From positions 1 through 33,644 of the forward strand of contig JACMQI010000038.1 in assembly GCA_014377045.1 (NCBI GenBank): 33,644 nt of DNA. The letters are read 5' to 3'. Under the pieces are notes generated by a model. It was given only the letters and a program-made list of their open reading frames with translations. It did no database searches and was not told the DNA's origin. The translations under genes and the position numbers were made by a program. This stretch comes from a candidate division SR1 bacterium. Lineage in GTDB: Bacteria > Patescibacteriota > JACMRA01. Below are positions 13,120-33,324 of this stretch, piece after piece. Every line of letters starts with the position of its first letter. Position 1 is the first letter of the stretch.

Positions 13120-13165
13120 AAAAGATAGAAAAGTTTATACTTTTTATTTTATATTGAGGTTTTTA

Positions 13166-13618
13166 GTGAATAAATACATTTTTTCTTCTGTTGCCATTGC
13201 TATAGTTTCGTTATTACTACAACCCGTAATAGCCCAGGCTGACGGAATTGTTATTAAGTTTCGAGTCGGTGATTTCTCAGGCAAAATAGGTGATTTTGAC
13301 CACGATCAAAGATATCGTAATCGTCAGCGTTATTATGATCGTCAATACAATCGGGCTGATTATGATGGTTATTATAATAATCGCCGAACTACAATTCTAG
13401 TTCCTAACTACAATAATAACCAGTGCTACACAGTTGACCAAAATGGCAATAAATATAAAATGAATTGCAATAGCATTCGTCAAAATAATAATGTAGACAC
13501 GAGTGATTATGAAAATAATTACGATAATAATAACTCTAACAATAATGGAGGTGGCCGCACTACTGTATTTTGTCAAGACACAAGAAGAACACAGTGTCGT
13601 ACGGTAACTATTAATTAG
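13166..13618 (+). CDS. Secreted Asn/Tyr-rich protein with two-cysteine tail (150 aa)
   Basis: I choose the GTG at 13166 because GAGG lies about 7 nt ahead; a TTG at 13154 is also in frame. The signal peptide runs to about AQA (residue 26). The mature protein is basic and polar, dominated by Asn, Tyr, Arg and Asp with runs of Asn (NNNNNSNNNGG-like), so it is largely disordered. It ends with TTVFCQDTRRTQCRTV, a tail shared with the next protein. Another two cysteines (QCYTV...MNC) precede the Asn-rich stretch. No family recognised; probably an exported or surface-associated protein. A strong terminator follows. Confidence 0.6.
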   Translation: MNKYIFSSVAIAIVSLLLQPVIAQADGIVIKFRVGDFSGKIGDFDHDQRYRNRQRYYDRQYNRADYDGYYNNRRTTILVPNYNNNQCYTVDQNGNKYKMNCNSIRQNNNVDTSDYENNYDNNNSNNNGGGRTTVFCQDTRRTQCRTVTIN

Positions 13619-13776: not shown

Positions 13777-14199
13777 GTGAATTTAAAGTTATCTACTATA
13801 ATCGGAATTGGAGTTTTCCTCGGATCATTGGTTTTATCTTCATTTCCAGCAAATGCAAGCCACTGTCGTCGACACCAGCCTCGACAAAATCAACAAAATT
13901 CAGTGATTTATGTACCATATCAGCAGTCCCAACAATCAAATTATTATCAGCAACGTTCATCATACCGTCACATATTTCAGCGTCGCGCATTAAATCGCCG
14001 AAATAATAATGGTTATTATCCTTATAATAACGGACAGCAAAATGGTAATCAACAAGTATACTACAATAATCAGTATCCAAATAATTATCAGCAAAATAAC
14101 AATGGCGACTATCAGCAGCAAAATCAATCTCAACAAACTACAACATTTTGTCAAGATATGGCAAGAACGCAGTGTCGCAATGTAAACTACAATAACTAG
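13777..14199 (+). CDS. Secreted Gln/Asn-rich protein with two-cysteine tail (140 aa)
   Basis: It starts at GTG after a clear AGGAG. The signal peptide (hydrophobic GVFLGSLVLSS) is followed by a cleavage region at ANA (about residue 27). The mature region is strikingly rich in Gln, Asn, Tyr and Arg with almost no hydrophobic residues, so it is presumably disordered or aggregation-prone. It ends with TTTFCQDMARTQCRNV, matching the tail of the previous protein at most positions, so the two are paralogs that diverged in the middle. The tail holds two cysteines seven residues apart. No known domain. Own promoter and own terminator. Confidence 0.6.
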   Translation: MNLKLSTIIGIGVFLGSLVLSSFPANASHCRRHQPRQNQQNSVIYVPYQQSQQSNYYQQRSSYRHIFQRRALNRRNNNGYYPYNNGQQNGNQQVYYNNQYPNNYQQNNNGDYQQQNQSQQTTTFCQDMARTQCRNVNYNN

Positions 14200-17430: not shown

Positions 17431-18564
17431 ATGTACTTCTATAATATTTTAATCAATAAAAAAATACCTAGTATTAGCTTGACTTACAAAAGTGAGATAC
17501 TGATACGAAAAGGAACTTTAGTATCTATTTTATTACGTAAAAATGAGATTTATGGTATCATAGTGGGTACAGTACCAGTCGAAAATGTTGTCGATATTGC
17601 TAAGATAAGTGAAATTAAAAGTGTATTGCCATATATATTTACAAGTCAACAAATTAGACTTCAAAGCGTAATTTCTTATAATACTTTTAACAGTCCGAAT
17701 GTTGTATTAGATGCTTGTTTAAATCCTATATTAAGTTTGACTCAGAAAGACATGAAATTATTAGAACAAAAAAAAGATACTGTTTTATTTAATACTATAA
17801 TACATAAAATAAAAAGTAGAAAAATTGAGTACTATCTTGATACCGAAGTAGTATTGCGTATAATATACATTATACGAATAAGTATATTAGCCTATTTAAA
17901 AGCATTTTTAAAATTAATTAATAGTAATACTCAAAATAATATAAATATACTTATATTATTTCCAGAAAAAAAATACATTGAAAAAGTTTATAAAGAATTA
18001 ATAGATAGTGCTTTTGAAGCCGAGTTCATATCTAAAAATTTAAGTGTTAATATTACTACATTTACTGGAGATAAATCTAAATCTAGTCGACAATCTATTT
18101 ATAATATACTTAGTCTCAATCAATTAGACAAATTTAAAACTCAAATAAATATTATTTTAGCATCTCGCTCTGGTCTTTTTCTACCGTTTGATACCCTGCA
18201 CGATTTATTAGTAATTGATGAAAGTAATTCTATGTATATTCAAGAGCAAAATAGTCTATACTTTGATGCTCGAGAAATAGCTTTCATTCTATCAGAGATA
18301 TTTGGATCGAATTTACATTTTATTTCCAGAGTACCAAGTATTCGGCTTCATAGTTTTTATCCTGAGAGCATTTTAAATAAGTATTTAATTAACGATAAAG
18401 ATATTGATACAAAACCTATTAAAATCAAAGTTACAGGCCAAAATAAGAAAATTGATAAATACAAACTTATATCTGGGCCAGTTTTAAAATTAGTGCAAAA
18501 AAGAGAAAATTTAGACGGATTAGATATCGAAATCATAGACGTTAATTTTAGTGATTGGGATTAA
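17431..18564 (+). CDS. priA: PriA N-terminal half, degenerate helicase
   Basis: This 377-aa protein matches the N-terminal DNA-binding and first helicase domain of primosomal protein PriA. The 3'-end-binding start (TLVSILLRKNEIYGIIVG) aligns with PriA residues near 30-60. The DEEH box is represented by LLVIDESN (residues about 260-266), followed by the YKQEEGPRYHARD-like EQNSLYFDAREIAF and a weak motif III (ISRVPSIRLHSF for SATPSLES). The Walker A (GxTGSGKTE) is not present: the matching position reads YLDTEVVLRII. It ends at EIIDVNFSDWD, which corresponds to the point where PriA moves into helicase domain 2. The rest is encoded 1.9 kb away. It can hardly be an active ATPase on its own. Confidence 0.8.
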   Translation: MYFYNILINKKIPSISLTYKSEILIRKGTLVSILLRKNEIYGIIVGTVPVENVVDIAKISEIKSVLPYIFTSQQIRLQSVISYNTFNSPNVVLDACLNPILSLTQKDMKLLEQKKDTVLFNTIIHKIKSRKIEYYLDTEVVLRIIYIIRISILAYLKAFLKLINSNTQNNINILILFPEKKYIEKVYKELIDSAFEAEFISKNLSVNITTFTGDKSKSSRQSIYNILSLNQLDKFKTQINIILASRSGLFLPFDTLHDLLVIDESNSMYIQEQNSLYFDAREIAFILSEIFGSNLHFISRVPSIRLHSFYPESILNKYLINDKDIDTKPIKIKVTGQNKKIDKYKLISGPVLKLVQKRENLDGLDIEIIDVNFSDWD

Positions 18565-18607
18565 AATACTATTCCCCCTACTCTATATAGTTTTTAGCTA
18601 AAAAACC

Positions 18608-18636
18608 TTGACATCAATACAAATTTTCTTTATATT
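18608..18636 (+). promoter_or_regulatory. Promoter of the TerD-like gene
   Basis: TTGACA (18608-18613), 17-nt spacer and TATATT (18631-18636). The leader is about 48 nt, contains an imperfect CCAAGG/CCTTTGG stem, and ends in GAGG before GTG. Confidence 0.65.
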
Positions 18637-18690
18637 TGCCGTATCCAAGGCCTCAAAACCTTTGGTTTACTTCTTTTATGAGGAATTTTT

Positions 18691-19296
18691 GTGGATATTC
18701 AAATTAAAAAAGGATCTGGTTTGATAGTAACAACAAAAAAATATAATATTGGTGTAATTGCTGAGCTTAGTTGGGATACTACAAAAAGTTGGAAAATTGA
18801 TCTCGATTTATTTTGTGCTGCTACTTCATTTAATCCAATTACAAAAATTTACATGTTAGAAAACATGTCAGCACTATTATATCATGCTAATCTTAAATGT
18901 TATGATGGTGCACTCGTACACTCAGGCTATGAACAAACAGGCGTTAAAGAAGTCGATGATGAAGCAATAACCGTATTTCTAAATAAATTACCAGTAATTA
19001 TAACCGATGTTATTATTGGCGCTTGTATTGATCCAGTTAAATCTATACCTCTTAGTACTTTTAAAAATGCTGCAAATGCAAAAATTACTATTCGAGCACT
19101 TGTTGAGGGCGCTGGCCAACTTAAAGAAATACTGAGTGTAAATCTTCAGACTAAGTTCACAACTGGGATTTTAATTGGAATGTATACTCGAGTTGGTGAT
19201 AATTGGCACTTTGAAACTATCAATCAATCTGTAAAATGCCATACAAATACACCAATTCAAGAAATATTAGAAGCAGTACCGTGTGATTGCCTATAA
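18691..19296 (+). CDS. TerD-family stress protein
   Basis: A 201-aa TerD-domain protein. TerD proteins are Ca2+-binding and linked to tellurite resistance, envelope stress and signalling. The domain has IDLDLFCAAT (DLDxxA motif), then an acidic loop, GALVHSGYEQTGVKEVDDEAITVFLNKLP, which resembles the VHSGDNLTGEGxGDDExIxVDLSKLP signature, and a final strand GILIGMYTRVGDNWHFETIN that matches the family end. Start at GTG with GAGG ahead. It has its own promoter and terminator and lies between the two PriA halves, so it is likely an acquisition. The common TerA/B/C/E partners are not in the window. Confidence 0.83.
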   Translation: MDIQIKKGSGLIVTTKKYNIGVIAELSWDTTKSWKIDLDLFCAATSFNPITKIYMLENMSALLYHANLKCYDGALVHSGYEQTGVKEVDDEAITVFLNKLPVIITDVIIGACIDPVKSIPLSTFKNAANAKITIRALVEGAGQLKEILSVNLQTKFTTGILIGMYTRVGDNWHFETINQSVKCHTNTPIQEILEAVPCDCL

Positions 19297-19323
19297 TAAA
19301 ATCAAGTATATTTATTACATGCA

Positions 19324-19348
19324 ACACCCAAATTTAGGGTGTTTTTTT
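19324..19348 (+). terminator. Terminator of the TerD-like gene
   Basis: ACACCC/GGGTGT stem with a 7-nt loop, merging into seven T. Confidence 0.85.
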
Positions 19349-19409
19349 GAAACAATATTTACTTACTTATTTAATAATACAAACCTTGCGGGGAATCACA
19401 TATATCATG

Positions 19410-19437
19410 ACATTGAAATTAAATGTAATTTCAATGT
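19410..19437. repeat. Perfect 12-bp inverted repeat
   Basis: ACATTGAAATTA and its exact complement are separated by AATG. There is no T tract, so it is not an obvious terminator. It lies in the otherwise empty region after the TerD-like gene. Confidence 0.55.
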
Positions 19438-19608
19438 TAACGATTGATAAATAAATTACAATTAAGTTACAAGAACTGCCTAGTCATGCTAGTAAAATAT
19501 TAGTAAGTTTAAATATCACAAGCGCTGGGTTTATAGCTTTTAAAATTGCTAAAGATAATGATAAAATTAGATTATAATAAATTTAGACCAAGAGTCTAAT
19601 GGAGATAT

Positions 19609-19862
19609 ATGCCAATTTTACTTATGAACGATAGTTTCGAGGATAATTTTGCTAAACTTTTAGAAAGTTACTCAAAACCTAAGTGGTTTATTTTATCCAA
19701 TTATGCTAGAAGCAGCATCTAGATTTTTCTGCAAACATTAACGAAGTTAATTATAAACACAAAATATATGATAATTTTATTTTTATGCACAAATTTAAAA
19801 CCCCAATATCTAAAATAAAACTTTACTTAGAATTACTTGAAAATATACTTTCAGTAAGATAA
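19609..19862 (+). pseudogene. Possible frameshifted small gene
   Basis: An ATG at 19609 after GGAG (19601-19604) opens 37 codons ending at a TAG at 19720. A second open stretch in another frame overlaps it (19710-19862) and continues for about 50 codons. Joined by one frameshift between 19710 and 19722 they give about 84 residues with coding-like composition. The first part (MPILLMNDSFEDNFAKLLES) loosely resembles a receiver-domain start, but I have no real match. Confidence 0.3.
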
Positions 19863-19971
19863 AATTTAATATCATCTAAAATATTGAAAGTACTAAGTTG
19901 CTTCATATTTTTCTGTAAGAAAATGACTCCGAGGTTTTAACTATCGAAGTCGCAAGTGTTAATTTTGATAA

Positions 19972-20397
19972 TTAAAATTTGTCAAAAATATTTGAATTAA
20001 TATAATTTTGTCTATAGTCACCCTTAAGTTTAAGTTTAGGTATACTATATTGTACTAATTTTATGATTCCACTTTCAGGATTATTTGGATTTACAGTATC
20101 TGTAATTATAGAATATATAGACATTTGTCCTTTTTCAACAGGGATCATGTAGGTCGCTGCTGGAGTATTATCAGTGATAAATATTAGCCAATCTCTTTGA
20201 AACGGAATCTTACAAATCTCTTCACCAAATTTTGTGATTATTAATTCATACTCATCATTTACTACAAATGATGATGATCGCATATCTAAAGTATTCTTAT
20301 AAACAACTTGTTTGTAATTTGATGCTAAACACCCAATTAATCTTAAGTGGTGGCCTACAGTAATATGGCAAGCAACTATTTTCAGTGAAGTTTCCAT
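19972..20397 (-). CDS. Hypothetical 141-aa protein
   Basis: No family recognised. The protein is soluble, with alternating strand-like segments (ELIITKFGEEICKIPF, WLIFITDN) and a short basic C-terminus; it may be a small beta-rich domain. It is transcribed from a promoter that overlaps the one used by the PriA C-terminal gene (see 20434-20484). It lies in the block that separates the PriA halves, so it may have arrived with the TerD-like gene. The ATG at 20397 is preceded by a weak GAG. Confidence 0.5.
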   Translation of the reverse strand: METSLKIVACHITVGHHLRLIGCLASNYKQVVYKNTLDMRSSSFVVNDEYELIITKFGEEICKIPFQRDWLIFITDNTPAATYMIPVEKGQMSIYSIITDTVNPNNPESGIIKLVQYSIPKLKLKGDYRQNYINSNIFDKF

Positions 20398-20433
20398 GCA
20401 ATTTGTCTCTAGATATAGTAAATTAACTCTTAA

Positions 20434-20484
20434 AAATTATCATAGAAAATGTCTCTTGTCAAGTCTCGATTTATCTTATAAATT
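20434..20484. promoter_or_regulatory. Overlapping divergent promoters with a shared -35
   Basis: On the plus strand TTGTCA (20456-20461), 17-nt spacer and TAAATT (20479-20484) lead into the PriA C-terminal gene, whose ATG is at 20493. On the minus strand TTGACA (20462-20457), 17-nt spacer and TAATTT (20439-20434) lead into the 141-aa gene. The -35 boxes overlap by five bases within CTTGTCAAG. Confidence 0.6.
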
Positions 20485-20492
20485 TAATATAA

Positions 20493-21431
20493 ATGAACCA
20501 AAAAACTCTATTTATATTTCCCAAACGTGGCTTGTATACTCTAACCAAGTGTACTAACTGTGGCCATGGATTTCAATGTGAACATTGTGACGCCAACTTA
20601 GTTACATATCGTAAATGGGAGAAAAATCTAGAGCTTGTATGTCATCAATGTCAGACATATTATAACTATCCACTAAAGTGTCCAAAATGTGCTAGTACAG
20701 AAATATCGAGCTATTTTGGAGGTGTAGATGAACTTGTAGAAATAGTCGTAAAAGAGTCTGGAAATCCTGTATATAGGTATGATGACAAAAAAAGAAGTAA
20801 AGAAATGGCTATAACCACAAACGCTGTAACTACGCGGATATTCGATCCTTCTATCCCCTACTCTAATTTCACACATATAGTTTTTGTAGAGGCTCAAAAT
20901 CTACTTGCAAGTCCAGACTACTTAGTGCAAGAGGAAATCCATAAGCAATTACTAGAATTAATGCTTTCTATATCAGAACAAACGGAAATTATCTTTGATA
21001 CAAATTCACCTGATCTTGAACTTTTTATTGGTTTAGCACGTTTAGATAAAAACCATCCTGAACATTTAGATAAAAAACAATGGTTTATAAATTTCCTTAC
21101 CACAGAGGCTAAAAGTAGAGAAATGTTTAACTTTCCCCCTTTTGTGAACACTTTACTCTTAACCACTCAACAAAAAAATAAAGATAAATCGTTTGAAATT
21201 ATCAATCACGTACGATCAGAACTTATAAAAATAAAGCAACAATTACCAGATCTTACAATTAGCTCGCCATATCAAGCTAGATTTTTGAAACGTAAAGGTA
21301 TGTTTAGCTATCACGTATTGGTTCGTTTTCCACGCCAGTATAAAGATATTGGTAAACTACGTGAAGAAATTATGCAGCTAGGAAGTATTTATGGAGTACA
21401 GATTAGACTAAACCCTCGGCATCTGTTTTAA
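20493..21431 (+). CDS. priA: PriA C-terminal half, zinc module intact, helicase motifs lost
   Basis: A 312-aa protein matching helicase domain 2 and the C-terminal domain of PriA. It starts with FIFPKRGLYTLTKC (like LFLNRRGYAPxLxC) and has the complete PriA zinc module: eight cysteines in four CxxC pairs at 20/23, 29/32, 50/53 and 63/66. The C-terminal end, with FPPFVNTLLLT and GMFSYHVLVRFP, fits the PriA C-terminal domain. The expected helicase motifs are missing: there is no TGTQMIxKGHDFP and no QVAGRAGR sequence. The ATG at 20493 is predicted leaderless. Together with the gene at 17431 it covers most of PriA apart from a link of about 30 residues. It may serve a structural or DNA-binding role in replication restart. 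Confidence 0.8.
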   Translation: MNQKTLFIFPKRGLYTLTKCTNCGHGFQCEHCDANLVTYRKWEKNLELVCHQCQTYYNYPLKCPKCASTEISSYFGGVDELVEIVVKESGNPVYRYDDKKRSKEMAITTNAVTTRIFDPSIPYSNFTHIVFVEAQNLLASPDYLVQEEIHKQLLELMLSISEQTEIIFDTNSPDLELFIGLARLDKNHPEHLDKKQWFINFLTTEAKSREMFNFPPFVNTLLLTTQQKNKDKSFEIINHVRSELIKIKQQLPDLTISSPYQARFLKRKGMFSYHVLVRFPRQYKDIGKLREEIMQLGSIYGVQIRLNPRHLF

Positions 21432-22238: not shown

Positions 22239-23030
22239 TTATTCTTCATAAATCCAACATCCGTAAGCTATAAAACTCAGGTTTCTTTCGCCTACTATTT
22301 TAGAATCTAACTGTCTAATAGTCCCACTTGCAGCATTGCGAGGATTAGAAAATATACCATCAACCCCAATTTGACTCATTTTACCTACTTTTTCTCCAGC
22401 TAAAATAGCTTTATTTAGGTTTTCAAAATCTTTTTTAGTGAAAAATACTTCACCACGTACTTCCATTTTACTTTTAAAATCAATATTTTTAGGAATCGCT
22501 CTAATTTGGTTTATATTTTCTGTAACCAATTCACCAGTCCAGCCATCTCCTCGAGTAGTTGCTGTAGTAAGGACACCATTTTCATATTCTAAACTTATAG
22601 CAAGTCCGTCAATTTTAGGTTCACAAATATAGTGAATTTGAATTTCGTTATCATTAATTTGTAAACTATTTATATTTTCTGAACTAATTTCTAAGTTTTC
22701 TTGAAATTGAAATACATTATTTCGTACTCCATAATCGATCCATCTCTGTTGCCACTCTTCTAGTTCTTTTTTATTAAAAATATCATTGAGTGATAACATT
22801 CGCCTGGTATGACGAGACTTAACAAACTTTTCTGCAACTCCGCCAGCTATAATATAATTCGGACTATTTTTACTGATTTGATCCGGATTTGTAGTTTCAT
22901 ATAGACTAATCTTATGCTTGAGGTCATCGAGGGCTTGTTCAGATATTTCTTCAGTATCAAAAAGATGAACCTGATTGCGAAGTCTATTTACTTCATCTAC
23001 GAGGGTAAGATATTCATTAGATGTTAACAT
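22239..23030 (-). CDS. ligA: LigA N-terminal fragment (partial adenylation domain)
   Basis: This 263-aa protein is the front of NAD+-dependent DNA ligase. Domain Ia is followed by the nucleotidyltransferase domain: the catalytic lysine lies in CEPKIDGLA (K139), followed by TRGDGWTGE, VRGEVFF and FSNPRNAASGTIRQLD. It stops after FIAYGCWIYEE, so motifs IV (DGVVIK) and V (the AxKFP lysine) are missing, as are the OB fold, zinc finger, helix-hairpin-helix and BRCT domains. Normal length is about 670 aa. The next gene begins only 12 bp later, so the remainder cannot be downstream here. The ATG at 23030 is predicted leaderless. It could be a split-gene half or a degenerating gene. Confidence 0.85.
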   Translation of the reverse strand: MLTSNEYLTLVDEVNRLRNQVHLFDTEEISEQALDDLKHKISLYETTNPDQISKNSPNYIIAGGVAEKFVKSRHTRRMLSLNDIFNKKELEEWQQRWIDYGVRNNVFQFQENLEISSENINSLQINDNEIQIHYICEPKIDGLAISLEYENGVLTTATTRGDGWTGELVTENINQIRAIPKNIDFKSKMEVRGEVFFTKKDFENLNKAILAGEKVGKMSQIGVDGIFSNPRNAASGTIRQLDSKIVGERNLSFIAYGCWIYEE

Positions 23031-26754: not shown

Positions 26755-28068
26755 TTATAGTTTTTTGTTTTTGTTTTTTATAAATAAATAAGCTACTATA
26801 CCAATAACTAATGCCATAAGCAAGAGACCTGCAAGCTCTTTTCCTCCTGTACGTGGTAAGGATGCTGTAGCATTTGAAGATGGATTTGTATTAGTCGCTG
26901 GCTGAGTTGCCGTACTTATGACTGAGGGTGCGGCTTTGACATTAATAACTAAACCAAGGTCTTCTTTAGAACCTCCAGCAATCGTACCAAATAACTTAAA
27001 TCCACCTACCCTGTTACCAACAGGAATGTTAGTACAATTAAACGTATTAGAGTCTGATACAGTACATTTCACTATACTATTGCCTTCAACGTTTAATTCC
27101 AAAGTACTTGAGGCAAACATTCCAGTACAGTTTATAAACTTGTTTACTTCTACAGGATTTGGTATACAATTAATACTCGACTTTAATAATGTCAATGGAT
27201 TTACTGGTGGTGTTACAACTGGAGGTAAAGCCAGCACATTAAATGATTTACCTGAATCATATACCTGTCCTATTCCAATCTGAACTCGTAGTGGCTGAAG
27301 TCCAGCTTGAGATGATGTAGGTACTCCAGCACATGTGAGTATATTTCCAGAAGTAATACACTGCCCCGCTGGTGCGGTACCTAAACCAAATTTCATATCT
27401 GCTGGTATAATATATCCTGATCTAATAGTAAGTATACAAGTTGTAGGTTGATTTACATATACTATATTACAACTTATCTCATTAAACGGGCTTGTAATAG
27501 CTCCTAAGTTTTGTGAAATTAGATCATTATAATTTACTAAGTGATTAATAACGCTTATCGTTACATTGGTATCTACAGGAGTCGAATTACCAATTTTACC
27601 GAATATTTTGAAACTTCCTGCTGTGTTACCTACTGCAATATTAGGACAGGTAAATGTACTTAAAGAGAATGTACAATTAGCTAGTGGTAAACCTTCTATT
27701 CCTATAGCTAATATACCTTGTGGTGCAACTCTTGTACTATTAAGAGTTCCGGTGCAACTAACAGTTGTGTTAACTTCTGCGGGATTTGGTGTACAAGTGA
27801 TACCATTTATAGTGTACTGTGAAACAAGATTTGGAATATCTGCAGCAATAAGAGGGAATGCGCTGTTTGTAGCTAAATTGCATGACCCAAATGTAGTATT
27901 AATACCGTATCCATAACATCCGTATGTAGTTGTGTTTGCTTCGGCTGCTTTTGATGTATTTCTTGACTGAGTTAATTGACCAACAATTACATACCCAGAA
28001 ATAAAAATCATTATTAAAGATATATATATGAATATTTTTTTATTGATGTGACTGTATTTCCAAGACAT
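26755..28068 (-). CDS. LPxTG-anchored surface protein with cysteine repeats (437 aa)
   Basis: An N-terminal transmembrane/signal segment (about residues 11-28) is followed by a short YGCYGYG-rich region. There are then three Ig-like repeats of about 80 residues, each with four cysteines; repeats 1 and 3 begin with CTPNPAEVN and CIPNPVEVN and carry a matching VSCTG/INCTG segment, repeat 2 is more divergent. A Ser/Thr/Asn-rich linker leads to LPRTGG, then a hydrophobic helix (LAGLLLMALVIGIVAYLFI) and KNKNKKL, the classic sortase sorting signal. The protein should be covalently attached to peptidoglycan. Its gene follows the Tat-signal peptide by 31 bp and is probably read with tatAC. No sortase gene is in the window. 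Confidence 0.82.
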   Translation of the reverse strand: MSWKYSHINKKIFIYISLIMIFISGYVIVGQLTQSRNTSKAAEANTTTYGCYGYGINTTFGSCNLATNSAFPLIAADIPNLVSQYTINGITCTPNPAEVNTTVSCTGTLNSTRVAPQGILAIGIEGLPLANCTFSLSTFTCPNIAVGNTAGSFKIFGKIGNSTPVDTNVTISVINHLVNYNDLISQNLGAITSPFNEISCNIVYVNQPTTCILTIRSGYIIPADMKFGLGTAPAGQCITSGNILTCAGVPTSSQAGLQPLRVQIGIGQVYDSGKSFNVLALPPVVTPPVNPLTLLKSSINCIPNPVEVNKFINCTGMFASSTLELNVEGNSIVKCTVSDSNTFNCTNIPVGNRVGGFKLFGTIAGGSKEDLGLVINVKAAPSVISTATQPATNTNPSSNATASLPRTGGKELAGLLLMALVIGIVAYLFIKNKNKKL

Positions 28069-28099: not shown

Positions 28100-28267
28100 T
28101 TAGGCTCCATACCCATTATTTCCAAAACCTGATTTTGTAGTCGACGAAGATTTAGGTGATTTATTAAATAAAGAGAAAAATCCACCAAAGGAAAAAAATA
28201 GTCCGATGATACCTAAAGATTTTATAAATTGTCGTTTAGTAATTTGTTTAGTTTTGTTTAGGGTCAT
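28100..28267 (-). CDS. 55-aa protein with Tat-type signal sequence
   Basis: A small gene starting 13 bp after the stop of tatC. The N-terminus reads MTLNKTKQITKRQFIKS, followed by a hydrophobic core LGIIGLFFSFGGFFSLF. ITKRQFIK fits the Tat consensus (S/T-R-R-x-F-L-K), with a lysine in place of the first arginine, as is sometimes accepted. After the core only about 20 residues remain, Ser/Lys-rich, ending FGNNGYGA. It is too short to be an enzyme. It may be a membrane-held or processed peptide substrate of the neighbouring TatAC. Absence of a cysteine makes a lipoprotein unlikely. Small Tat-signal proteins with Gly/Tyr-rich ends have been noticed in other CPR genomes, from memory only. Confidence 0.7.
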   Translation of the reverse strand: MTLNKTKQITKRQFIKSLGIIGLFFSFGGFFSLFNKSPKSSSTTKSGFGNNGYGA

Positions 28268-28280
28268 AATAGTAATTTGT

Positions 28281-29009
28281 TTAGTTATTTTGTTTTATAA
28301 TTGTTTTGTTTCTCGAAGCTAATAGGATTGCTAGCTCGTATAGTAAAAGCACTGGAACACAGCTTACTGCCCAAGTAAAAACATCTGGTGAACCAAATGC
28401 TGCCATAAAGATCAGTATTACAAAATAGATTTCTTTTCTTTTGGAAATAAAAAATGATGATGGCAACAAATCAGATCGAATTAGCCCATAAACTAAAACG
28501 GGAGTTTGAAATACTAAAATCATAATTCCAAGCAGACTTGTTAGAAAACTAGTATATTCACTAGCAGTTAAAATTAATTGAGTATTAGTTGGTGTAAAAT
28601 TAAGTAAAAAATGGAGGGTTGAGGGAATTAGAAAGTAAAATCCAAATAAAATAGCAATAAAACTAAGTAAAAAAATCGCAAAAATATACGACGCTATAAA
28701 AGCTTTTTCTTTATGTATTAAAGCTGGACTAATATAGTGCCATATAAATACACTTAAAAAAGGTAGCGAAACAAGCAATCCTGCTAAACTGCAGATATTG
28801 ATTACAAAGAAAAAAGAATCTGTTGGCGATAGAAAATGCAAGGTAAGATTCATGTCTCTTGCTGGTTTAGTAATTAAGTCAACTAGCTGATTTCTGAATA
28901 TAAATGCAATTCCTGTAAATCCAATCCAACTTATCGCTATTTTTATAATTACAAATTTAAGCTCATTTAAATGATCTAAAAATGTAATATCAGTTTTTAC
29001 TTCAGACAT
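28281..29009 (-). CDS. tatC: Sec-independent protein translocase TatC
   Basis: The 242-aa core of the twin-arginine translocase, which recognises Tat signal peptides and exports folded proteins. The start has the family pattern LDHLNELKFVIIKIAI (like HLxELRxRL). The six expected transmembrane segments can be placed. The conserved loop after the first TM and the FxxxxS/TPTDSFF segment (LSPTDSFFFVINI) are present, as is a C-terminal region GSPDVFTW (like SPPDVxSQ). It lies 19 bp after tatA and 13 bp before the 55-aa gene. Confidence 0.94.
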   Translation of the reverse strand: MSEVKTDITFLDHLNELKFVIIKIAISWIGFTGIAFIFRNQLVDLITKPARDMNLTLHFLSPTDSFFFVINICSLAGLLVSLPFLSVFIWHYISPALIHKEKAFIASYIFAIFLLSFIAILFGFYFLIPSTLHFLLNFTPTNTQLILTASEYTSFLTSLLGIMILVFQTPVLVYGLIRSDLLPSSFFISKRKEIYFVILIFMAAFGSPDVFTWAVSCVPVLLLYELAILLASRNKTIIKQNN

Positions 29010-29028: not shown

Positions 29029-29235
29029 TTATTTGGAAGTTTTTTCTACTACTTCTGTATCAACAACTGGTTTGGAGTTGTTAAGACTTTCTGTTGTGTC
29101 TTTTAACTCTTCTTTAAAACCTTTTACTGCTTTACCGATACTTCTTGCTGCTTCAGGGAGCTTATTTGTACCAAAAAATATAAGCGCTAAAGAACCAATA
29201 ATGAAAAGTTCAGGGAGACTAAAATGTGGGATCAT
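29029..29235 (-). CDS. tatA: Sec-independent protein translocase TatA
   Basis: A 68-aa protein with one N-terminal transmembrane helix (PELFIIGSLALIFFG), the FGxxKLPEAARSIGKAVKGFKEEL amphipathic helix and an acidic-polar tail, the standard TatA/E form. It lacks the longer tail that would suggest TatB, so this is a minimal TatAC system. Its promoter is at 29268-29296. Confidence 0.94.
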   Translation of the reverse strand: MIPHFSLPELFIIGSLALIFFGTNKLPEAARSIGKAVKGFKEELKDTTESLNNSKPVVDTEVVEKTSK

Positions 29236-29325: not shown

Positions 29326-31308
29326 TTAAGCTTCTATTAATCCAAAGCCTTTCCATGTCCCAGGTGTTCCAGCAGTTATGCAAGTCCAGCCCATATAACC
29401 TCCAGGAGTAGGTGAAGTATTATAAATCACATCTCCCTTGACATAAGTTCCAGTTGTTGGAAAAGCTGAGTCATGCCAAGAAATAGGATCAACATTAGGT
29501 AAAGCATAAAAGTCTGATTTTGCATAGTCTGTCGCATCTTGGTAATAATCAAATTGTACTATTTGTACTTTAGAAAAAAGTATTGTAGTTGAACTGGGGT
29601 TATATGATTTAATTGATAAAGCACCTTCACCAAGAGAATCACCATATACTCCCACATAAGAATGCCAATTATCATCTATCAAAGCAACACCGTTTCCACT
29701 ACCAATTAGTAATCTAACTGGATTAGCTCTTGTTGCGTTAGGTACTTTTATGGATAAGCTAATGACGATATATCTTTTACTATAATCTACATTTTGCAGT
29801 ATGGGACAGTATGTTGCGTTTACAGAAGGAAAAATTACTTCTAAACATTTATTGTTATACAAACCATCATCAGATATAATACTTGGGACACAATTACGCG
29901 ATGTAAATGGACCATTATCAACACCTAAAATACTAGCACAACTACCCCATGGAGCCACATTTTTGTATTTACGAGTAATAATAGAGCGATTATTTTTGGT
30001 TTTCCAAAGATTGGTAGCATTATTTTCACCTCCATTCCCATTAAGATTACCACGCATTGCAAAATCCGTCATAAAGTTTATTACACCTCCATAACCACCA
30101 GATGGAACTTCTGAAATATTATAGCAGTCCAAATAACTTGATGCATCGTACTCTATTTTATCAAATACATTTCCAGCTTCACTGCCTTGAACATAATCAA
30201 GCTTTAGATACGATCGATTTTTTAAGACTATACCATGAGGAAGATTACCGTGTTCGATTACTCCTTTACTATTATCAAAAATAAATTCACGAATTATATA
30301 GTCTTTACCATCAATATTAACTGTTTGACCATAATTTTGGGCATTAGATTCGAACCAGCAGTGGGCAAATTTGAGCGATGCAAGAGTAACTCCAGTACAT
30401 ATTGCTAAAACGCTAATGCCTTTAGTACCCTCCCACCAACAGTTTTCAAATTTTGTTTGATTTTCATCAGTATGATTAACGTTGTTATAATAAACTGCAA
30501 CTTTATTGCCATTAAAAAAACAATGAGTAAAATAATCGAATCCAGAATAGTTATTATTAGCTGCTGGTTGGGTTGAGCCTTTACTAAAAATACCAATATC
30601 TCCACCAAATGTACAATTATCAAATCTACCAAAAAGAGTTGCTTCTTTGTACAAAGCTACTCCGCAACCTCTAATTGTAACTCGAGACATATTGACTGGA
30701 TTATATCCTGCATTTTGCGGTGAGTCAGACTTTGGAATACACTTTACACCATTAGTATTGAAAGCTAAATTAGGGTCATAAGATTTCCTTCCATTTATAG
30801 ATAAGTTTTCTAGGTAATGCTGTCCATTGGCGTGAAAAGTAAAAACATAGCCATCTGGATTAATTGCCGCCATTTGGGTTGAGCCTGTAGATTCTCCAGT
30901 TATTACTATACCTGGCTGCCCCTTGACTTCTACTTCAAAAAAATAAAGGCCGTTTGGGAAAAAGAGTTTTCGATGTACGTCATCAATTTGAGCTGTATTA
31001 ATTGCTGCTTGCACTACAGCACTATCATCTGCGTTGTCATTATATCCAGCTTTACCAATATCTTGAACGTTTATAAAACCTCCAGTATGTTTAACCACCC
31101 AAGCAGTTCCTATCCAAGTATGAAAATTACCTGTACGATTATTAAGGTAAGTTTTACCTTTGTCATCAGCTGTAAGGTTGGTAGGACGGTCTGCAAAGTT
31201 TGTAAAGGAATTGAAAGTTCCACCATTTGCATTATCCGTAGTTTGTGTAATGTAGCTGTTGAGCGGGATTCCCCAGTTGGAATCTCCAATTGTAGGTAGT
31301 TGTTTCAT
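29326..31308 (-). CDS. Beta-helix tailspike-like surface protein (660 aa), paralog 1
   Basis: Begins with LPTIGDSNWGIPLNSYITQ and a collar-like domain (residues 1-80) containing GKTYLNNRTGNFHTW. A beta-helix core follows, introduced by DNADDSAVVQAAINTA, the pectate-lyase-superfamily (PF12708) start. The middle has repeated small polar/aromatic turns (FENCWWEGTKG, FAHCWFES). A beta-sandwich-like region leads to a C-terminal module PISWHDS...GDVIYNTSPTPGGYMGWTC...TPGTWKGFGLIEA. The organisation is that of phage tailspikes and of surface polysaccharide-binding or -degrading proteins. No signal peptide or sorting signal is visible, so its route to the surface is open. Paralog 2 lies 54 bp upstream. 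Confidence 0.83.
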   Translation of the reverse strand: MKQLPTIGDSNWGIPLNSYITQTTDNANGGTFNSFTNFADRPTNLTADDKGKTYLNNRTGNFHTWIGTAWVVKHTGGFINVQDIGKAGYNDNADDSAVVQAAINTAQIDDVHRKLFFPNGLYFFEVEVKGQPGIVITGESTGSTQMAAINPDGYVFTFHANGQHYLENLSINGRKSYDPNLAFNTNGVKCIPKSDSPQNAGYNPVNMSRVTIRGCGVALYKEATLFGRFDNCTFGGDIGIFSKGSTQPAANNNYSGFDYFTHCFFNGNKVAVYYNNVNHTDENQTKFENCWWEGTKGISVLAICTGVTLASLKFAHCWFESNAQNYGQTVNIDGKDYIIREFIFDNSKGVIEHGNLPHGIVLKNRSYLKLDYVQGSEAGNVFDKIEYDASSYLDCYNISEVPSGGYGGVINFMTDFAMRGNLNGNGGENNATNLWKTKNNRSIITRKYKNVAPWGSCASILGVDNGPFTSRNCVPSIISDDGLYNNKCLEVIFPSVNATYCPILQNVDYSKRYIVISLSIKVPNATRANPVRLLIGSGNGVALIDDNWHSYVGVYGDSLGEGALSIKSYNPSSTTILFSKVQIVQFDYYQDATDYAKSDFYALPNVDPISWHDSAFPTTGTYVKGDVIYNTSPTPGGYMGWTCITAGTPGTWKGFGLIEA

Positions 31309-31362: not shown

Positions 31363-33324
31363 TTAAGCCTCAATAAGCCCAAAGCCTTTCCAAGTTCCAG
31401 GTGTACCGGCGATAATACAAGTCCAGCCCATATAACCTCCAGGAGTAGGTGAAGTATTATATATCACATCACCTTTAACATACGTGCCAGTGGTAGGAAT
31501 AGCTGAATCATGCCAAGAAATAGGATCACTGGGTGGTAATGCATAAAAGTCTGATTTGAGATAATCTGCTGCTTCTTGGTAAGTTGCAAAAGTTACCCAT
31601 TGTACTTTTGAAAATAAAACTGTATTAGCTATGTTTTGTGAATTTTTGAAAGCCAATCCGTAAGCTGTATCTTTAAAAATACCACAGTATGTGTGCCATT
31701 TATTATCTTTAATAACTATATTTCCTCCTCCGCCTACGTTATTTTTATAAAAATATAAATTTCCATTCGATTGTGGAGACTTTACAGCAAAAGTCAAGAC
31801 AAAATATTGAAGATCACCAGTATTATCATTTTCGATATTAAAAAGTGCATTACTATTATTAATAGGAAAGTCTACTTTATAGCATTTATTTCCGTAAATC
31901 CCATCTCCTGAAATAATTTGAGCTAACGTACCACCGTCGACACCAAAACGTGATCCTACTTGGTTAAAATATTGCCTTGTATGGGTTGGTCGATTATTTT
32001 TAGTTTTATATACATTTAAACCAGCGTTAGTTGCTCCACTTGGATATGATAACATAGCGTATTCTGCCATTACACTTGTACCTGCACCGTAACCACCTAT
32101 GGATGAATCACCTACCATACCTAAATCAAGATAGCTACTTTCGTCATATTGAATTTCATCTAGGTGAATCCCTCCTTCGTTTCCAGTAGCAACGTAATTT
32201 AATCTTAAATACGATCTATCACTGAGGCTAACCCCATTTGGTAAACCTCCATGTTCAATTACTCCCCTAGCAAATTTAAATACAAAACCTTGTATAACAT
32301 ATGTCACTCCATCGATAGTAATATTTTGACCTCGGTTCTGACTATTAGCCTCGAACCAACAATGCGAAAATTTTAGCGACGATAATCCTATTCCAGTACC
32401 TAATGCAAGACAAACTATACCAGGATTACCTTCAAACCAGCAGTTTTCAAATTTAGTCTGATTTTCGTCATAGTTATTTCTATTATCATAGTAGACGCAT
32501 ACTTTTTCGCAACCAGCCCAATAACAGTGATTCCATTGATCAAATCCCGAATAAAGACTTGCATATAATGTACCACCGCCTTTATTAAAAACTCCAATAT
32601 TACAGCCAAAAAAATTTATATTTTCAAACTTTCCAAAAAGACAAGCATCTTTGCGAAGTCCAATATCGCAAGCAGTAAAATTAACATTTTTAATCATTAT
32701 TGGATTAAAGTTAGATTGTTGAGGAACTCCAGGAATAGGGAAACACCTAATACCGTTTGATATTTTTGGATTACCACCACCAAAATCTCCGTATCCTACA
32801 ATGGCCATATCTTCAATATGTTGAACTGACGTAGAGTGAGTAGAAAAAGCATAGCCTCCTGGATTAATGGCTTTAACTTGAGTATTAGCGCCGCCGCTAG
32901 GACCTCCTCTTGAGGCACCAAAAACTGTAATGCACTTGTCTCCAGAAATATTAACTTCAAATGAATATGCTCCGCCAGGTAAATATAATTTATCTATATT
33001 CGAACCTTGCACATAATCAATAGCTGCTTGAACTACTGCAGTATCATTAGTTGAAGTAATTGCTCCATAATCCATGACATTTACAAAGCCACCGGTATGT
33101 CTAACATTCCAAGTTGTGCCTGTCCATTCATGAAAATTGTTTGTTCGATTATTAAGATATGTTTTTCCTTTATCATCTACTGTGAGATTAGTAGGCCTAT
33201 CTACAAAATTTGTAAAAGAGTTAAACCCCCCACCATTTGTATTATCAGTTGTTTGAGTTATATAGCTGTTAAGTGGGACTCCCCAATTAGAGTCGCCGAT
33301 AGCAGGTAATTGTTTATTTGGCAT
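31363..33324 (-). CDS. Beta-helix tailspike-like surface protein (653 aa), paralog 2
   Basis: Same architecture as paralog 1: LPAIGDSNWGVPLNSYITQTT start, GKTYLNNRTNNFHEW collar, TNDTAVVQAAIDY start of the beta helix, FENCWFEGNPG and FSHCWFEANSQ turns, and the same C-terminal module. The N-terminal 80 residues and last 60 residues are nearly identical to paralog 1, whereas the centre differs strongly. That is typical of a variable binding or enzymatic core between conserved ends. It lacks a signal peptide. It is the first gene read from the tandem promoters at 33348-33405. Confidence 0.83.
   Translation of the reverse strand: MPNKQLPAIGDSNWGVPLNSYITQTTDNTNGGGFNSFTNFVDRPTNLTVDDKGKTYLNNRTNNFHEWTGTTWNVRHTGGFVNVMDYGAITSTNDTAVVQAAIDYVQGSNIDKLYLPGGAYSFEVNISGDKCITVFGASRGGPSGGANTQVKAINPGGYAFSTHSTSVQHIEDMAIVGYGDFGGGNPKISNGIRCFPIPGVPQQSNFNPIMIKNVNFTACDIGLRKDACLFGKFENINFFGCNIGVFNKGGGTLYASLYSGFDQWNHCYWAGCEKVCVYYDNRNNYDENQTKFENCWFEGNPGIVCLALGTGIGLSSLKFSHCWFEANSQNRGQNITIDGVTYVIQGFVFKFARGVIEHGGLPNGVSLSDRSYLRLNYVATGNEGGIHLDEIQYDESSYLDLGMVGDSSIGGYGAGTSVMAEYAMLSYPSGATNAGLNVYKTKNNRPTHTRQYFNQVGSRFGVDGGTLAQIISGDGIYGNKCYKVDFPINNSNALFNIENDNTGDLQYFVLTFAVKSPQSNGNLYFYKNNVGGGGNIVIKDNKWHTYCGIFKDTAYGLAFKNSQNIANTVLFSKVQWVTFATYQEAADYLKSDFYALPPSDPISWHDSAIPTTGTYVKGDVIYNTSPTPGGYMGWTCIIAGTPGTWKGFGLIEA

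Follow-up and report, generated by a model that had tools for sequence, protein, structure and literature searches.

A small Tat-signal protein with a C-terminal YG tag as putative export adaptor for tailspike-like LPWG proteins in Patescibacteria

A family of small proteins, one member of which is encoded in the tat operon of a candidate division SR1 bacterium, probably works as a minimal adaptor for export: the small protein would provide a Tat signal in trans, dock a folded LPWG spike through its tail, leave the cell with it by TatAC and anchor it on the outside. LPWG designates here a signal-less exoprotein starting LPxxGxDxxWGxxLN, and the tail of the small protein ends in a short YG tag. 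The two genes occur together within the phylum and beyond it, and the tag recurs on unrelated proteins encoded next to LPWG.

The tat operon and the small-protein family

In the window (the whole stretch of 33,644 nucleotides analysed), transcription on the minus strand follows the order LPWG 2, LPWG 1, tatA, tatC, 55-aa frame and 437-aa surface protein (Table 1), and the successive gaps of 54, 90, 19, 13 and 31 nt make a single operon plausible, the 13 nt being those between the tatC stop and the start of the 55-aa frame. Both LPWG proteins of the window start QLPxIGDSNWGxPLNSYI. The 55-aa protein, MTLNKTKQITKRQFIKSLGIIGLFFSFGGFFSLFNKSPKSSSTTKSGFGNNGYGA, carries K-R and not R-R as its basic pair, and just 21 residues stand behind its hydrophobic segment, which bears out the remark of the earlier note that this Tat-type peptide has almost no passenger.

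Table 1. Features of the tat operon in the window.
Feature	Position	Strand	Basis
Small Tat-signal / YG-tag protein, 55 aa, ATG start	28100..28267	-	Homologues in 24/380 phylum genomes, shared architecture
Twin-basic motif TKRQFIK, residues 10-16	28220..28240	-	Family consensus [STD]R[KR]xFLK
Hydrophobic segment, residues 17-34, predicted uncleaved signal anchor	28166..28219	-	Sequence and family hydropathy
C-terminal YG tag GFGNNGYGA, residues 47-55	28103..28129	-	Also on unrelated proteins directly upstream of LPWG genes
tatC	28281..29009	-	PF00902, E=2e-41
tatA	29029..29235	-	PF02416, E=3.5e-15
LPWG exoprotein 1, 660 aa, no signal peptide, tailspike-like	29326..31308	-	Foldseek best matches are phage tailspikes
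LPWG exoprotein 2, 653 aa, no signal peptide	31363..33324	-	PHROG tail fibre/spike matches
Sec-type, LPXTG-like anchored surface protein, 437 aa	26755..28068	-	PF00746, E=4.6e-4
YGCYGYG segment after the Sec-type signal of the 437-aa surface protein, residues 49-55	27904..27924	-	Sequence and enrichment in such loci

Elsewhere in the window, an NAD-dependent DNA ligase ORF of 263 aa (22239-23030, minus strand) comprises the adenylation domain only (PF01653); the rest of ligA is absent from its neighbourhood, where an aldose epimerase is encoded instead. On the plus strand PriA is apparently split (17431-21431): a TerD-domain gene (18691-19296) separates its 3'BD ORF (17431-18564) from its C-terminal ORF (20493-21431). 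On the same strand, two neighbouring secreted low-complexity proteins (13154-13618 and 13777-14199) have a common C-terminal FCQDxxRTQCRxV and no Pfam match.

When the window protein alone was used as query, weak matches were obtained in four of the five other genomes of its taxonomic family; intact homologues with the same architecture and a GYGxxxYG end were present in three of these five, and an interrupted one in a fourth (G003). A profile search with a 13-member alignment across a phylum sample of 380 Patescibacteria genomes detected the family in 24, including the frameshifted copy of G003. On the G003 contig concerned (C15; loci L004/L055), tatC and the small gene are both frameshifted, the latter with an A8 run, by decay or sequencing error. 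No small proteins were found in plasmid or phage sequence searches, and a viral scan with the small protein was likewise empty.

The family comprises ~65 small proteins of 53 to ~99 aa (about 70 distinct ORFs once named loci are included) with a plan of helix, twin-basic [STD]R[KR]xFL, single membrane helix, short linker and [YF]G-x3-[YF]G end. Its consensus reads xLLxKEM[DST]R[KR]xFLxxxG, a Gly-containing hydrophobic segment, a variable linker and G[YF]Gx[SNG]x[YF]G, followed by 0 to ~11 residues, and the tag [YFS][GS]x3[YF]G stands within the last 30 residues of 64 of the 67 members, against 2.1 expected from shuffling. One degenerate end (NYGHKIQKS) belongs to the second small copy of G081 (L045:12045-12380), which lies directly upstream of LPWG. 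The small family is under purifying selection: dN/dS was 0.07-0.2 in close pairs with unsaturated dS, drawn from other members, the window copy being without a close relative. With its occurrence in the phylum and its conserved plan, the frame is a real, selected gene, as the earlier note had supposed, conserved in relatives at the amino-acid level and with a dN/dS in the family that is not near 1.

RK or KR instead of RR weakens Tat recognition in model systems. Across the family the twin motif was RK in 45 members, RR in 13, RQ in five, RS in two, KR in one and KK in one. The spacing and the F are conserved in the family. The description of the window motif as near-consensus has to be qualified for the basic pair, K-R here and mostly R-K in relatives. 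The hydropathy cut-off was passed by 66 of 69 members (median maximum 12-mer hydropathy 2.25), and AF2 placed a helix at residues 17-43 of the relative in L140. An A.A in the assumed cleavage region was seen in only eight members and is absent from the window copy, a scarcity of signal peptidase sites that fits an uncleaved anchor. The Tat signal models TIGR01409 and PF10518 gave weak matches in 3 of 13 members, the window protein not among them.

TatC was detected in 33 of the 380 genomes, namely in 23 of the 24 with the small gene versus 10 of the 356 without it (p=5e-28), and the small gene lay within 2 kb of tatC in 15 genomes; the linkage to tatC that the earlier note had proposed to look for in CPR genomes is therefore present. 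In several small-positive genomes Pfam TAT_signal matched mostly the small proteins themselves, so that conventional Tat substrates look few there, as judged from such matches; in TatC-only genomes the same model matched ordinary-sized proteins. A published set included a single Saccharibacteria genome with tatBC; four genes with a TAT motif were reported there, two of which had no known function (PMC6031116). The TatC of many small-positive genomes (e.g., L046:8903-10009, L051:15559-16713) is extended at the C-terminus by ~100 aa, with R[SR][LIV]DG[FIM] as a frequent ending; in TatC-only genomes the protein measures 236-270 aa.

The single strong hydrophobic segment and the prevalence of R-K over R-R would also suit a mere membrane anchor inserted by Sec/YidC, with the spikes leaving the cell otherwise (lysis, phage-like or other export). 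The phage-like nature of the cargo points the same way, as does G002 (68% complete), where the small gene (motif KK) and LPWG are present and TatC was not found. We consider such an anchor unlikely, in view of the distribution of TatC given above, of the recurrent gene order tatA-tatC-small-LPWG and of a TatA in locus L104 that is itself tagged.

LPWG proteins and gene order

The LPWG exoprotein stood repeatedly beside the small gene, in a neighbour version that reads RLPIPGxDxGxWGxxLNxFL. A profile of its first 45 residues, which was built from loci near small genes and may miss distant LPWG versions elsewhere, found LPWG in 22 of the 380 genomes, that is, in 22 of the 24 small-positive and none of the 356 small-negative ones (p=1e-33); with this profile no recognisable LPWG was seen in G001 and G361, both of which have the small gene and TatC. 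From the LPWG side, the small gene was present in 25 of 27 LPWG genomes, nearly all of them chosen for having no small gene in sight near the LPWG gene, and at least two overlapping the phylum sample. Beyond Patescibacteria, the only LPWG matches of the scan came from Acidithrix ferrooxidans, an actinomycete MAG and Mycolicibacterium agri; the small gene is present in each of these three. Common descent by itself hardly accounts for so consistent a pairing in different phyla.

LPWG is directly downstream of the small gene in 11 of the 24 genomes, its match beginning 11-163 nt past the point where that of the small gene ends. Among 55 named LPWG loci, 17 have the small gene directly upstream, with a spacing of mostly -4 to +11 nt and stop and start often overlapping or 2-3 nt apart, and in several loci a GGAG in the last codons of the small gene (YGA end) sits at the position expected for an LPWG ribosome-binding site. 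Such spacing and such a GGAG are what an upstream frame for translational coupling to LPWG, with a peptide devoid of any role, would display; this is extremely improbable in the face of the dN/dS values and of a motif and tail that are conserved even in copies not followed by LPWG (the window, G051, G302, G311). As a translational leader only, the small ORF is rejected, its amino-acid sequence being conserved away from LPWG.

A further reading makes the small protein an accessory subunit of TatAC, a TatB-like receptor or regulator, with LPWG genes as merely frequent neighbours. It draws on the close linkage of the small gene to tatC, on the joint presence of tatA and tatC in the loci read, and on the NCBIfam model NF038009.1 TatB_1 ("twin-arginine translocation system-associated protein"), which matched 13 of 13 tested members almost end to end (best E 3e-18), all scores shown being below its cut-off of 100 bits (best 65.8, window 16.2 bits). 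A related group has therefore, this suggests, already been catalogued by NCBI curators, under a name that hints at a translocase component and is silent on LPWG, tag and phages; the open literature searched contained no publication on NF038009 TatB_1 or explaining the small family. Where the two associations separate (G208, G235 and second copies in G199 and G344), however, the small gene tracks LPWG and not tatC, and in G214 (L086) the order tatC-small-LPWG-small-LPWG indicates that the pair was duplicated as a unit while tatC stayed single. Furthermore, the small proteins match neither PF02416 nor TIGR01410, they have no amphipathic helix past the membrane helix (in AF2 the tail is short and not helical), and the conserved tail would sit on the far side of the membrane. 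Taken together, these observations leave an accessory subunit rather improbable, a little more so than the Sec/YidC anchor.

The earlier note had suggested a dedicated partner or anchor from the position of the frame between tatC and a surface protein. The direction was right, but the main partner appears to be the LPWG proteins, encoded upstream of tatA in the window, and not the LPXTG-type protein that comes next; a quality-control role, also mentioned there, is without support. As main partner, the 437-aa protein is unsupported, not being the conserved neighbour.

In Actinomycetota, a set of small gene, LPWG and YG-bearing stalk was observed in L105/L175 (Acidithrix ferrooxidans contig 26), L106 and L121/L161 (Mycolicibacterium agri), accompanied in Acidithrix by tatA and tatC and, by eye, by island-like neighbours (nucleotidyltransferase-like and regulatory genes). 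This set looks transferred.

The 90 distinct LPWG ORFs carry the motif at the N-terminus, and a convincing signal peptide was seen in none. Their lengths run from short or truncated ORFs up to 1266 aa and their bodies are varied (pectate-lyase-like, tail-fibre PHROGs), with an S74 chaperone encoded next door. The AF2 model of a window LPWG protein was all-beta at modest confidence (pLDDT 58), and in Foldseek searches against the PDB its best matches were phage tailspikes and depolymerases, with K2-2 TSP, Kp7 gp52 and CBA120 TSP4 at the top (E ~1e-8 to 1e-10) and Sf6 TSP also among the best solved ones. The protein is thus predicted to resemble the right-handed beta-helix tailspike fold, as a matter of fold class only (pLDDT 58, TM-scores 0.2-0.4). 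PDB sequence searches with the LPWG domain and the window spike gave no meaningful match, and a spike query returned nothing in the plasmid search and one partial match in the phage search. Tailspikes are folded, in many cases as trimers, and would be better suited to Tat than to Sec.

The YG tag beyond the small family

On the viral contig L141, the gene just before the LPWG fibre ends GFGHGKYSHNKYGEG, and in each of L211-L215, relatives by the L141 LPWG domain, the gene directly upstream of LPWG is tag-ended as well. The tagged proteins of L141, L211 and L213 are related to one another, and that of L214 is unrelated to them except in its last 33 residues. In L104, a TatA homologue ending GQGYGQQGYGEKANS (its tag end also given as GYGQQGYGEKANS) is encoded directly upstream of LPWG. 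Overall, a C-terminal tag was found on 5 of 49 non-small ORFs directly upstream of LPWG versus 0 of 1107 others (p=1e-7), the viral relatives counted here being not fully independent of each other. Since the tag occurs on unrelated proteins next to LPWG, it is likely to be a docking element, as far as sequence comparison can tell.

In the viral loci L142-L144 and L226, LPWG was present and no C-terminal tag was found on its neighbours; a YG-like segment lies close to the N-terminus of those in L143 and L226. A pattern scan of viral DNA for LPWG starts gave no match. In the Streptomyces phages GiJojo, BRock and LuckySocke (L217, L218, L219), the LPWG genes lie, by annotation, inside large tRNA clusters and near genes for Ro-like RNA-binding proteins, not in the tail module.

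A YGxxxYG segment was also observed after the signal, near the mature N-terminus, in 21 of 253 Sec-exported neighbours against 3.5 expected after shuffling, the 21 including a few clearly unrelated membrane proteins and one small-family member; the Gly-Tyr echo between the 55-aa frame and the next protein, pointed out in the earlier note, therefore appears meaningful. The genes of many of these proteins diverge from tatA or the small gene, and several of the proteins terminate in a membrane anchor (e.g., L118, L105/L175, L049, L047, L186). In the Sec-exported YG family A7, full-length tagged forms occurred only in small-positive genomes; domain relatives lacking the tag turned up in three small-negative genomes as well. 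This comparison is confined to a few families. Sec-exported YG proteins, the 437-aa protein of the window included, may be alternative docking sites at the surface.

The enrichment among Sec-exported neighbours could also mean that the YG tag serves in self-assembly or in binding to the wall, with small and Sec-exported YG proteins sticking together or to the envelope and LPWG being one client of several; the small genes of G361 and G001, unaccompanied by recognisable LPWG, agree with this. We nevertheless regard it as very unlikely, given that outside the family, in the loci examined and viruses included, C-terminal tags were found only directly upstream of LPWG, and that LPWG is missing from every one of the small-negative genomes.

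Proposed export and its biological meaning

Returning to the adaptor, we infer tag-LPWG binding, Tat dependence, topology, hand-over and the role of the spike as follows. The signal-less LPWG proteins would fold in the cytoplasm as tailspike-like beta-helices, and their N-terminal LPxxGxDxxWGxxLN domain would bind the GYGxxxYG tail of the small protein, often translated just before. TatC would recognise the small protein by its R[KR]xFL signal, and the complex, already folded, would cross with TatA, the spike being carried along as a hitchhiker. With its signal uncleaved, the small protein would become a membrane anchor that holds tail and spike outside; the spike may then remain there or pass to the Sec-exported stalk proteins with YG segments near their mature N-terminus, and could serve to attach to glycans of the host or matrix or to digest them.

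Signal, tag and cargo as exchangeable modules would fit two variants: the tagged TatA of L104, and a protein of G401 (L174:1447-2706) in which a small-family Tat signal is fused to a passenger of ~360 aa without Pfam match. By eye, this passenger looks beta-helical. An AF2 model of a read-through fusion of small protein and LPWG from L140, computed as a single chain with a shallow alignment and a two-residue linker, gave a membrane helix, a tail with pLDDT below ~65 and no sign of an interface. Against the adaptor stand this model, the prevalence of RK over RR, the lack of recognisable LPWG in G001 and G361, G002 with its KK motif and no TatC found, and the viral loci in which LPWG has no C-terminally tagged neighbour.

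Among the closest known counterparts is the MelC1/MelC2 tyrosinase of Streptomyces, where a Tat-signal helper encoded just before a signal-less cargo is secreted with it as a hitchhiking complex (PMC2758597). The small protein and LPWG share with this pair the lack of a signal peptide on the partner as well as adjacency and co-inheritance, but not the folded helper domain, as only ~20 residues of low predicted confidence follow the membrane segment. Moreover, MelC1 is also required for copper insertion, whereas the small protein is seemingly uncleaved and its cargo is tailspike-like with no known cofactor. In the FAD glucose dehydrogenase gamma/alpha complex (PMC6719666) and in PaoABC (PMC4273604), too, the signal resides on one subunit and a folded partner is co-exported by Tat; the gamma subunit of the former, however, has a folded mature domain of 121 residues, in contrast to the YG tail alone, which is found on unrelated proteins as well. 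By analogy, the proposed system is most likely the hitchhiker principle of MelC1/MelC2, FAD-GDH and PaoABC reduced to signal plus tag.

Tat tail-anchored and signal-anchored membrane proteins are similarly Tat-targeted and held by one membrane helix (PMC10924467), but they usually have large globular domains, and the small protein would receive its folded part in trans. The docking of phage tail fibres and tailspikes, as read from the viral contigs L141 and L211-L215, resembles the bacterial arrangement in placing an LPWG N-domain on a spike-like protein beside a C-terminally YG-tagged structural protein; in bacteria the tag is on a Tat signal peptide or TatA, not on a virion protein.

Tentatively, and somewhat short of what we would call probable, a wider proposal can be made: a phage tail-fibre docking device, made of C-terminal YG tag and N-terminal LPWG domain, would have been domesticated as a modular surface display, the tag having left a virion protein and been placed on a bare Tat signal peptide, on TatA and on Sec-exported stalks in Patescibacteria and, by transfer, in some Actinomycetota. 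Tat would there carry folded tailspikes with a separately encoded signal, and much of the Tat machinery of these organisms would serve this end.

If true, this would equip ultrasmall epibionts in a new manner with interchangeable phage-like spikes for binding hosts or cutting glycans, and would explain, in a specific and testable form, why some reduced Patescibacteria retain TatA and TatC when 347 of the 380 genomes here lack TatC and few other Tat signals can be recognised in those that retain it. It would also point to the likely surface spikes by which these organisms, whose attachment has for the most part no explanation, make contact with their hosts, and the tag shared with phages suggests the origin of the system. 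Should the signal work in trans with ~20 residues behind it, the small protein would be a natural Tat escort of very small size, and tag and receptor would form a ready pair for exporting folded proteins.
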